From Candidatus Acidiferrales bacterium (lineage in GTDB: Bacteria; Acidobacteriota; Terriglobia; Acidiferrales; UBA7541), in assembly GCA_035934015.1 (NCBI GenBank), contig DASYYH010000011.1, positions 62,001 through 126,000 on the forward strand: 64,000 bases of DNA, written 5' to 3'. Positions 875-30,949 of the stretch are shown here, piece after piece (within the stretch, counting starts at the first letter, position 1; the number at the start of each line of letters is the position of its first letter). The translations under genes and the position numbers were made by a program. The notes beneath the pieces were generated by a model. It did not search any database and had not been told where the DNA came from. It worked only from the letters and a program-made list of their open reading frames with translations.

Positions 875-981
875 GTCGGCCGGGCGCGAGGTATTTGCCT
901 TTCTGCAAACGCCCGCTGCCCAAAAAAGTTGCGTGGATTTATTAAAGGACTGCCTTCCTTTCGCGCGTCTTATCCGCCCGT

Positions 982-993
982 CCGCCGTGGCGG
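982..993 (+). repeat. Palindrome CCGCC-GT-GGCGG
   Basis: A short perfect inverted repeat in the gap before recX. Its CCGTGGCG core resembles the palindrome at about 1697-1710 (CTCGCCGTGGCGAG), so it may belong to the same dispersed family. Confidence 0.4.
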
Positions 994-1018
994 GCGCGAT
1001 GGATTCACCTTTTGCTTT

Positions 1019-1053
1019 TCACTCGTCACTTGTCACTCATCACTTATCACTAG
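1019..1053 (+). repeat. Five tandem heptamers TCACTNN upstream of recX
   Basis: The units are TCACTCG, TCACTTG, TCACTCA, TCACTTA and TCACTAG, with no gap between them. The first five bases are invariant and the last two vary. The array ends 12 bp before the recX start, so it lies in the leader or promoter of that gene. A two-copy version sits at 825-838. Confidence 0.8.
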
Positions 1054-7977: not shown

Positions 7978-8007
7978 CTTTCTGACGTATAGCGTATAAT
8001 GTGCCTA

Positions 8008-9111
8008 ATGATTACGCGCCAATTTGTCCTCGCTTTTGTTCTGCTCACGGCATCGCTTGGAGCGCCCGCTGCTTTTGCACAAAAGTTTTTGCCGACATCG
8101 GTTTCGAATTGGACGTCGGCAAGTCCGCCAATGGAAGCGACGGCGGCGAACCTGAATCCGATTGCTGGACCGGCAACGGCGGCGCTGCTGGAATACGGCA
8201 TTCAGTCGGCGGAGAGGCAGACCTACACGCAAGGCAAAGCGTCATTCACGGCAACGGTGTATGCGTTTGAGGACGCGGAAGAGGCATATGGCGCGTATTC
8301 ATTTCTGCGGACGCCCGATATGGCGCCGGCGGATCTCACGAACCACGCTTCGATGTCGGATAGCCACGCGCTGGCTCTGACCGGGAATCTGGTGGTGGAA
8401 TTCACGGGCAAAAATTTGCGGCCTCTTCACGGTGAAATGGAGATGCTGGTCGTGGCAGCCAGCGGACACGCGACGTGGGGAGTTTATCCTCCGCTGCCGG
8501 ACCGGCTGCCAAAAGAGGCCATGATTCCGCGAACCGATCGCTTCATTCTTGGGCCCGCGGCGCTCGATCAATTTCTGCCTCTTTCGAGCGGCGACTGGCT
8601 CGGATTTTCCGTGGGAACAGAAGTGGCATTGGCGCGATACAAGATCAGAGGGCGTGAGGCGACGCTTGTCGTAGCCGACTTTCCGACGCCTCAACTCGCC
8701 GAAAGGCAATTGGCGAAGCTCAGCAGCGAATTCAATGTGAACGGATCGAAGCCGGGCAAGTCGCCAATCTACGAGACGAGCGACGGAACGTTTGTGTCAT
8801 TCGTGGTCAGCGCGCCATCGGAGGAATCCGCGGACCGACTGCTGTCGCAAGTGCATCCGGGAATGATTATCACGTGGAACGTACCCGTTCCGAATCCCAA
8901 TGAGCCATCGATGCCGGCGATTGTCGTCGGGACGATTATTGGCACGGGCGAGATTTGCGGGATTTCGCTGCTGGGAGGACTTGTCTTCGCCGGAGTCCGG
9001 CTGCTGACGAAGCGCACTTGGCCCGGAAAGGTATTCGACCGCACGCAGGCGCGCGAAGTGATTCAACTGTCTCTAACAGGCAAACCTATCAATACAAAAG
9101 ACTTGTATTGA
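8008..9111 (+). CDS. Exported DUF6599-like protein of unknown function
   Basis: About 367 residues with a signal peptide (FVLAFVLLTASLGAPAAFA, then QKFLP). The mature part is a two-lobed alpha/beta domain with repeated FxAxVYxFEDAEEAYGAYSFLR-type and VADFPTPQLAERQLAKL-type segments. A single C-terminal membrane segment (near VVGTIIGTGEICGISLL) is followed by a short basic tail. The layout recalls acidobacterial proteins annotated as DUF6599; that match is from memory. An ATG at 7999 is also in frame but lies inside a perfect TATAAT (7995-8000). If that hexamer is the -10, transcription would begin almost exactly at the ATG at 8008 and the mRNA would be leaderless. No good -35 is visible. Function unknown. 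Confidence 0.65.
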   Translation: MITRQFVLAFVLLTASLGAPAAFAQKFLPTSVSNWTSASPPMEATAANLNPIAGPATAALLEYGIQSAERQTYTQGKASFTATVYAFEDAEEAYGAYSFLRTPDMAPADLTNHASMSDSHALALTGNLVVEFTGKNLRPLHGEMEMLVVAASGHATWGVYPPLPDRLPKEAMIPRTDRFILGPAALDQFLPLSSGDWLGFSVGTEVALARYKIRGREATLVVADFPTPQLAERQLAKLSSEFNVNGSKPGKSPIYETSDGTFVSFVVSAPSEESADRLLSQVHPGMIITWNVPVPNPNEPSMPAIVVGTIIGTGEICGISLLGGLVFAGVRLLTKRTWPGKVFDRTQAREVIQLSLTGKPINTKDLY

Positions 9112-9198
9112 CGCAGAAGCTTCTTTGGCCTGTGGCAATCTTCTCTATCTCATTGAAAAGAAAATAGTTATAAAAACTTCGTTTTTGTTCGTTCCCGC

Positions 9199-9227
9199 TT
9201 GACTCAATTTCACAGGTTTCATAAACT
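9199..9227 (+). promoter_or_regulatory. Promoter TTGACT-17-TAAACT
   Basis: The -35 TTGACT is at 9199-9204, with an exact 17-bp spacer and -10 TAAACT at 9222-9227. It predicts a transcript beginning near 9234, which would run into the terminator at 9288-9318. Confidence 0.55.
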
Positions 9228-9233
9228 CCACTC

Positions 9234-9318
9234 TGTAGAAGGGTTTCGGGCCATCCGCGCATTGGCCCCGGAGCTTTTCTCCCCACGAAGGCCCGCCGCA
9301 AGGCGGGCCTTCTGCTTT
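9234..9318 (+). ncRNA. Candidate small RNA of about 85 nt
   Basis: A stand-alone transcription unit in a gene-free stretch. The predicted start lies seven bases after the -10. Hairpin 1 is GGGCCA/TGGCCC at 9248-9253 and 9263-9268. An unpaired CU-rich stretch (9270-9285) follows, and then the terminator hairpin. No start codon with a ribosome binding site lies inside. It is not recognised as a known family. The alternative is that the hairpin is just the terminator of the gene ending at 9111. Confidence 0.45.
9288..9318 (+). terminator. Rho-independent terminator
   Basis: A perfect 10-bp stem AAGGCCCGCC / GGCGGGCCTT with a GCAA tetraloop (9298-9301) is followed by CTGCTTTT. It would terminate the candidate small RNA and any read-through from the gene ending at 9111. 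Confidence 0.75.
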
Positions 9319-9356
9319 TCTGAAAAGTCTTCGCTCTGCTGCTATGAAAAATCATT

Positions 9357-9551
9357 TCACTTGGGAATTTTTGACCCATCAGCAACACAGAGTTTGTTCG
9401 AGTCAGCGAGCACGCCAACTTTGCGGGCTTCCGCAAGCGTCAGGTAGCTAAAAAACTGCGTCGCGAAAAAAGCGCACTGCGCCCCTGAACGAACCGCCTC
9501 GTCAATCACTTCAAATTCGCGCAGGTTGTGAGTATGATGCCGCGGCAGTGT
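9357..9551 (-). pseudogene. Remnant of a protein C-terminus
   Basis: A - strand frame open from a TAA (plus 9552-9554) to a TGA at 9357-9359. Its sequence is protein-like: HNLREFEVIDEAV, then an Ala/Phe-rich segment, then SYLTLAEARKVGVLADS, ending DGSKIPK. No ATG or ribosome binding site is available, so it is either a truncated gene or chance. The family was not recognised. Confidence 0.25.
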
Positions 9552-9587
9552 TTAGAACCATTGTGATATGGAGCATGCGCTAGCGGG

Positions 9588-30483: not shown

Positions 30484-30586
30484 AGCAGCGGCACAAAAGG
30501 CATTTTGACTTTTTCAAAATTGATCGAAACCTAATCATCATTCGCGTAGTCTTATATTCATTATGGAAAACGAAGGAGTACTCATC

Positions 30587-30949
30587 GTGAACCGCAAGCT
30601 ATTTCGTCCCTCCTTGACCGAGGTAAAGGATCAGTATCCCGCCCGGGGCGGGCATGACGGGGCAGGCCCTGGGCAGCGAAAAAAACCGGCTCCTCCGGAG
30701 CAAACTCACGCAGAAAGTTTCTACTACGTGAAGCAAATGCAGTCGCACACGCCAGTGACAGTCACGCTTACCGACGGTGAACAGCTTCACGGTATCGTGG
30801 AATGGTATGACCGCGAGTGCATCAAGCTGACACGCTTTGGGAGCCCTAATCTGCTCATTTATAAGCACTCAATCAAGTACATCTTCAAGGAAGGCGAAGA
30901 AGCGGCCCACGGAGGAAATGGAAACGGGAACGGACACGACGGGAATTAA
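30587..30949 (+). CDS. hfq: Hfq-like RNA chaperone with extended N- and C-termini
   Basis: About 120 residues. The Sm core spans about 48-102: FYYVKQMQSHTPVTVTLTDGEQLHGIVEWYDREC (Sm1), then LLIYKHSIKYIF, matching the Hfq Sm2 pattern (Y/F)KH. The tail is Gly/Asn-rich with acidic and His residues. The GTG at 30587 is the better start: AAGGAG lies at 30573-30578, eight bases upstream, and the product starts with MNRKLFRPSL. The ATG at 30563 is in frame but would place the ribosome binding site inside the gene. Residues encoded at about 30638-30670 (PARGGHDGAGPG) look repeat-derived. Its role would be pairing of sRNAs and mRNAs. It differs enough from E. coli Hfq that function is inferred. Confidence 0.75.
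   Translation: MNRKLFRPSLTEVKDQYPARGGHDGAGPGQRKKPAPPEQTHAESFYYVKQMQSHTPVTVTLTDGEQLHGIVEWYDRECIKLTRFGSPNLLIYKHSIKYIFKEGEEAAHGGNGNGNGHDGN
30638..30652 (+). repeat. Palindrome embedded in the hfq coding sequence
   Basis: CCCGCC-CGG-GGCGGG, a perfect 6-bp stem, encodes PARG within the N-terminal extension. It resembles the GC-rich palindromes of the intergenic regions and of alaS (4875-4888). Confidence 0.4.

Follow-up and report, generated by a model that had tools for sequence, protein, structure and literature searches.

A very probable small RNA gene with its own promoter and terminator, conserved at one location in an order of Acidobacteriota

A compact unit downstream of a DUF6599 gene

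The window, by which we mean the whole 64,000-nucleotide stretch analyzed, carries on its plus strand a gene for a DUF6599 protein (7999 to 9111; Pfam PF20244, E = 7.9e-23), followed on the same strand by a compact unit. The unit begins with a −35 box, TTGACT (9199 to 9204), and a −10 box, TAAACT (9222 to 9227), separated by 17 nt, exactly the promoter that an earlier sequence-only reading had claimed. The predicted product is a small RNA (sRNA) of about 86 nt (9234 to 9319), its 5′ end placed from the promoter and its 3′ end from the terminator. Most of it is taken up by hairpin 1 (9237 to 9280), which is supported by fold and covariation; the sequence-only reading had seen a smaller hairpin at this position, and it is actually large, with 44 nt, 17 pairs and one bulge. 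Its loop spans 9254 to 9262, and the loop together with its closing bases contains the segment CCGCGCATTGGC (9255 to 9266). The foot of the hairpin and the linker proper (9281 to 9286) form a C-rich stretch, UCUCCCCAC (9278 to 9286), which we take to be similar to an anti-Shine-Dalgarno (anti-SD) sequence. The terminator stem-loop, GAAGGCCCGCC-GCAA-GGCGGGCCTTC (9287 to 9312), has the GNRA-type loop (GCAA) noticed earlier on a stem of 11 bp, not 10, and is followed by the U tract TGCTTTT (9313 to 9319).

The segment from 9233 to 9318 folds with −49.2 kcal/mol (z = −4.8), a value reached by none of 200 shuffles. Promoter-like and terminator-like patterns as such are at chance level in the surrounding 3 kb (2 promoter-like sites versus 1.3 [standard deviation, 1.1] in shuffles; 3 terminator-like sites versus 4.1 [2.7]), and the case for the gene therefore rests on structure and conservation. 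The description of the surroundings as gene-free needs a small correction in their downstream part. There, 9390 to 9506 on the minus strand is similar to the 3′-terminal part of a pyridine nucleotide-disulfide oxidoreductase-like gene (tblastn against a 600-base stretch, E = 4e-5; named by eye), apparently a remnant. The gene is intact beside the sRNA in the closest same-genus relative, G003 (locus L003, 1826 to 3214), and about 1.5 kb of the G003 sequence is missing from the window.

Conservation, structure and distribution

A BLASTN search with 9060 to 9587 gave matches in 11 of 61 genomes, the window's own included. In three genomes of the same genus (G001, G002 and G004) it begins at 9192, just 5′ of the −35 box, and ends at 9319 or 9320; in G003 it extends from 9060 to 9493 and covers the flanks too; and in six more distant genomes it starts between 9239 and 9250 and ends between 9313 and 9332. 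Two extra short matches fell outside the unit, in G003 and G004. All 11 loci examined first, including the window, contain CCGCGCATTGGC. Global alignment of 36 copies to the window gave mean identities of 70% for the RNA, 58% for the preceding 40 nt, 49% for the upstream flank and 45% for the downstream flank. The window's own genome has a single copy, and on this ground we rejected a repeat or mobile element.

The sequence-only reading had suggested an Infernal search with homologues, and searches of this kind recovered the unit. A first covariance model (R1, 10 copies) found matches in 33 of 89 genomes of the family, in 10 of 13 genera, one of which (G033) we judged to be chance, and in 38 of 299 genomes of the class at E ≤ 0.01, the weakest again judged to be chance. 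A second model (R2, 36 copies) gave matches at E ≤ 0.001 in 55 of the 399 genomes scanned from the class. Among these, 37 genomes contain one strong copy each, at E ≤ 5.6e-10, and all other matches have E-values of at least 1.7e-5; since R2 necessarily recovers the copies it was built from, the informative part is the gap between these two values. In these scans Infernal was run with its stricter filters, at the cost of weak matches. The 37 genomes belong to the window's family (f1; 32 genomes) and to two sister families (f2, 1; f3, 4), all within one order. Among 396 genomes drawn evenly from the phylum, the window's own was the only one with a strong match, and eight others had E-values of 1.7e-5 to 7.4e-5. 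A pattern scan of named genome contigs returned 25 stretches, of which 16 show every element of the unit by eye and the other 9 are chance matches. The 16 are labeled Candidatus Acidiferrales (8), Acidobacteria or Acidobacteriota (3), Terriglobia (3), Acidipila sp. (1) and “Bacillota” (1); the last label is probably wrong, because this copy equals that of G024, a genome of the same genus as G013.

The set of 37 excludes the weak matches outside the order, the G033 match (E = 0.003, on a contig other than that of its DUF6599 gene) and a second, weak match in G111. We considered a wider spread beyond the order, where matches have E-values of at least 1.7e-5, and rejected it after inspecting six loci (L072, L378, L379, L381, L382 and L384). 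No DUF6599 gene lies near any of the six (best E = 0.45), and in most of them the alignment runs through the terminator and hairpin 1 is mismatched, cut short or passed over. By eye, the L382 match is the end of a 5S rRNA. L378 (G519, from another class) consists of tandem repeats that carry a hairpin with CGCGCAUA at the loop position and a GC-rich terminator-like hairpin, and lacks such a promoter. L072 (G115, from another family of the class; match at 950 to 1047, minus strand) has a promoter, a hairpin, a C-rich CACTCCCCC linker and a terminator, but neither the CGCGCA loop nor an upstream DUF6599 gene; it is perhaps an analogous sRNA.

All 37 copies have a promoter of the form TTGACN-17/18-TANACT directly 5′ of the hairpin. 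The −35 box is TTGACT in 25, TTGACA in 10 and TTGACG in 2 copies, and the −10 box is TAGACT in 32, TAAACT in 3 and TACACT in 2; these counts lean towards the consensus, because the best hexamer pair in the stretch 5′ of the RNA was picked for each copy. The distance from the promoter to GAGGA is 6 nt in many copies and somewhat larger in others. The pattern TTGACT-17-TAGACT occurs 29 times in the genomes of 21 relatives, compared with 2 occurrences of a reversed control. Three of the 29 are the sRNA promoter, and others precede a cobalamin riboswitch and LexA-like and CarD-like genes (by eye), so the pattern looks like a general promoter type. The riboswitch preceded by this promoter lies at L181 (G000, contig C20) and L179 (G003).

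In the 36-copy alignment, 91.9% of the cells in paired positions can pair (99.0% in the terminator helix, helix 5), and 21 of 25 pairs have changed on both sides. Such two-sided changes number 98 cells versus 27 in shuffles, and the covariation score is 0.437 versus 0.225, neither reached by any of 500 shuffles; sliding the partner by one to three columns lowers the score to 0.118 or less. These figures lean towards the model to which the alignment was fitted. RNAalifold's own prediction on the same alignment contains 16 pairs, 14 of them with two-sided changes. A first MAFFT alignment of 10 copies gave no support (2 of 25 pairs changed on both sides; covariation term, +0.29). The loop core CGCGCA is intact in 35 of the 36 copies, the exception being CUCGCA at L065, and the loop reads CCGCGCAUU in most. 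Many f1 copies have the form GAGGA...loop...UCCCCUC; the f3 copies have a reduced outer stem and retain the loop AACCGCGCACU, a GGCCC stem and CUUUCCCC.

Promoter, hairpin and terminator are thus conserved as one unit in 37 genomes between unconserved flanks, and we found the noncoding, covarying structure expected of a stand-alone bacterial sRNA gene. This bears out the earlier proposal of an independent sRNA of about 85 nt, and we are highly confident that the unit is an independent conserved RNA gene. Since matched changes are found in the stems and next to none in the loop, the sRNA is likely a regulator.

Very probably, this gene with its own promoter and terminator occupies the same location within the order. 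In all 32 loci found with the model (the window included; two are near-identical), a DUF6599 gene ends 121 to 171 nt 5′ of the RNA match on the same strand. Within 1.5 kb downstream, the largest group of homologous genes covers 7 of the 32 loci, all of one genus, and in G003 the next gene is convergent. At three loci of the sister families f2 and f3 (L071, L084 and L086), a tRNA gene lies about 42 to 67 nt 3′ of the match on the same strand. We also searched 30 genomes, picked mostly for having no RNA match, and 24 have DUF6599. A scan of 22 of these loci (the other two end at a contig edge) revealed the RNA in five (G034 and G111 of f1; G038, G041 and G042 of f3) and its absence in 17, all in f1, including all eight tested in g5 and all four in g12. 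Some genera, then, either lost the RNA or never acquired it, and kept DUF6599. DUF6599 occurs in 142 of 297 genomes of the phylum, and our search of the open-licence literature found no paper on it.

Proposed function, Hfq and competing explanations

What might the RNA do? Our preferred reading, to which we give a probability of roughly 55%, is that of a stand-alone regulatory RNA of about 86 nt that pairs in trans through its loop. As read from the conserved sequence, transcription would be driven by an ordinary (vegetative-type) promoter, with a predicted start at the base of hairpin 1, some 7 nt past the −10 box, and an end at the GC-rich terminator. Hairpin 1 would then display the near-invariant loop CCGCGCAUU on its covarying stems, with the C-rich anti-SD-like stretch next to it. 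We hypothesize that contact is made by the loop, through pairing with mRNA sites of the UGCGCGG type; the C-rich stretch may assist at ribosome-binding sites. The family would be specific to the order, inherited vertically behind the DUF6599 gene, and in the window's own family it would do without canonical Hfq. The sequences themselves show the conserved gene anatomy, the structure and the constant loop; the transcript, the pairing in trans and the part played by the C-rich stretch are inferred. On balance we consider base pairing the probable mechanism.

We searched for targets with the loop complement, AATGCGCGG, as a 9-nt seed, comparing 95 of the 96 sites of the window's own genome (97 records, two duplicated; the omitted site is the complement of the RNA itself) with 100 of the 119 sites of G001. 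Among these, eight gene pairs share a site at the same position, three of them antisense, and all eight lie in protein-coding sequence that is 72 to 92% identical, so that the shared sites need no RNA to explain them. The only two sense sites near a start are at about +30 of a HipA-like and about +45 of a RodZ-like gene (named by eye). Within the own genome, a rough codon-based score placed 11 of 95 site records close to a credible start; two records joined the set afterwards. AATGCGCGG is 2 to 4 times commoner than a reversed control in all five same-genus genomes (96 versus 43 in the window's own), an excess that may be mere codon bias. When loop and linker were paired with 12 gene starts of the window (24 tests), the lowest energies were those of the loop with a TPP_C gene (10104) and an SDR gene (14657), each reached by none of 200 simple shuffles. 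The loop paired with the starts of DUF6599 and of an Hfq-like gene no better than shuffles did.

This Hfq-like gene (30563 to 30949) had been cited in favor of an sRNA in the window. It passes the Pfam Hfq cutoff (41.2 versus 27 bits) and that of Pfam Hfq_1, and stays below the NCBIfam Hfq cutoff (36.7 versus 61.7 bits); we class its product as a diverged Hfq-like protein. None of 28 f1 genomes, many of them incomplete, yielded canonical Hfq, and 23 of the 28 have a weak, partial Hfq-like match (best E = 1.9e-10, in the window's own genome). The Pfam-level match thus holds, and as an argument for an sRNA it carries little weight, given the divergence of the protein and the lack of canonical Hfq in these 28 genomes, which also gives no backing for placing the RNA among Hfq-dependent sRNAs. 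Canonical Hfq (E ≤ 1e-21) is present in 16 of 18 class genomes of other families, again with many incomplete genomes, and in 4 of the 5 RNA-carrying genomes of the two sister families. On one contig with the sRNA, the Hfq-like gene lies about 2.2 to 2.4 kb away in G006 and G018, 5.6 to 7 kb away in G013, G014, G026 and G037, and 21 kb away in the window. A more ambitious version of the preferred reading, in which a core sRNA of the order keeps one fixed loop for a conserved set of mRNAs and, in a family that has lost canonical Hfq, uses the diverged Hfq-like protein of the same region or no Hfq at all, seems doubtful to us.

Among the alternatives, the one that survives best, although we think it unlikely, is a protein-binding RNA whose loop is bound by an RNA-binding protein, such as the diverged Hfq-like one, which the RNA would carry or titrate, with no pairing seed. 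A near-invariant loop on covarying stems is equally expected for a protein site, the AATGCGCGG comparison between the window's own genome (G000) and G001 yielded no conserved mRNA target, and the Hfq-like gene shares a contig with the sRNA in several genomes. Known sponge RNAs repeat their binding site, unlike this RNA with its single loop copy.

Less probable still is that the unit belongs chiefly to the DUF6599 transcript, as its 3′ end and terminator, and that the promoter yields an incidental or secondary short RNA, as in sRNAs of the 3′-UTR type. The constant spacing behind DUF6599 on the same strand is what this predicts. However, the promoter is conserved, conservation starts there and not at the stop codon, and a terminator requires no invariant loop in a separate hairpin. 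DUF6599 also occurs without the RNA, both in the 17 of 22 scanned loci (in genomes mostly chosen for lacking a match) and across the phylum, where nearly half of the genomes sampled have it, against a strong match to the RNA in 1 of 396.

A cis-acting leader (riboswitch or attenuator) of a downstream gene would share the order of promoter, structured domain and terminator; we regard it as very improbable, since no downstream gene is constant across the loci, the next gene in G003 is convergent, and anti-terminator pairing is absent from the minimum-energy folds of 10 copies. A short protein-coding gene is scarcely credible: open reading frames of 82 amino acids (plus strand, from 9199, starting with TTG and spanning the unit) and 115 amino acids (minus strand, 9089 to 9436) do cross the unit, a point against the earlier statement that it encodes no plausible peptide, but that statement otherwise stands, as the frame from the first TTGG of the RNA varies from 6 to 75 codons, is missing in 5 of 37 copies and diverges in sequence, and the changes in the stems are compensatory pairs.

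Known RNA families and further observations

No Rfam 15 family was a credible match among the hits for the window region (E ≤ 10) or for 12 homologue loci (E ≤ 5). The top scores for the window copy, all far under the gathering scores, were rnk_pseudo (RF01772; 22.4 of 55), BjrC174 (RF02355; 21.2 of 45) and CC0196 (RF01519; 18.9 of 35), and they arose largely from the GC-rich terminator. Among the closest in design is mmgR/suhB (RF00519, alpha-r8) of alphaproteobacteria, described in PMC7143759 as a trans-encoded RNA of about 77 nt with stem-loops and an anti-SD motif predicted to target; MmgR, which requires Hfq, folds into three stem-loops and carries its anti-SD in the loop of the first. 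Our sRNA differs from it in that its first loop is CCGCGCAUU. RF00519 gave a subthreshold score in 1 of the 12 homologue loci (25.6 versus 41 bits, E = 0.27) and none for the window copy at E ≤ 10. The candidate noncoding RNAs Acido-1 (RF01686) and Acido-Lenti-1 (RF01687), reported in PMC2864571, resemble the sRNA in being noncoding RNA candidates of Acidobacteria, and neither matched the window region (E ≤ 10) or the 12 loci (E ≤ 5).

Acidobacteria are a phylum common in soil. Only four distinct annotated sRNAs are given for them in the table of a 2022 review (PMC9029176), and we found no description of the present sRNA in the passages retrieved from the open-licence PMC main texts on small or noncoding RNA of Acidobacteria and on Acidiferrales. 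Relative to Rfam 15 and to that literature, the sRNA constitutes a new, well-supported, single-copy family. Its promoter is defined, its structure covaries, and its loop indicates where contact is likely to be made. It is also a natural test of how sRNAs persist once Hfq has been replaced, because canonical Hfq occurs in most sister-family carriers and in none of the f1 genomes searched.

One further sequence caught our attention in G005, where four copies (L192, L198, L200 and L201) of a TTGACTTCT...CTAGACT promoter precede a shared sequence around CCAGTAGCCATTC that has the look of a noncoding repeat or a mobile element.
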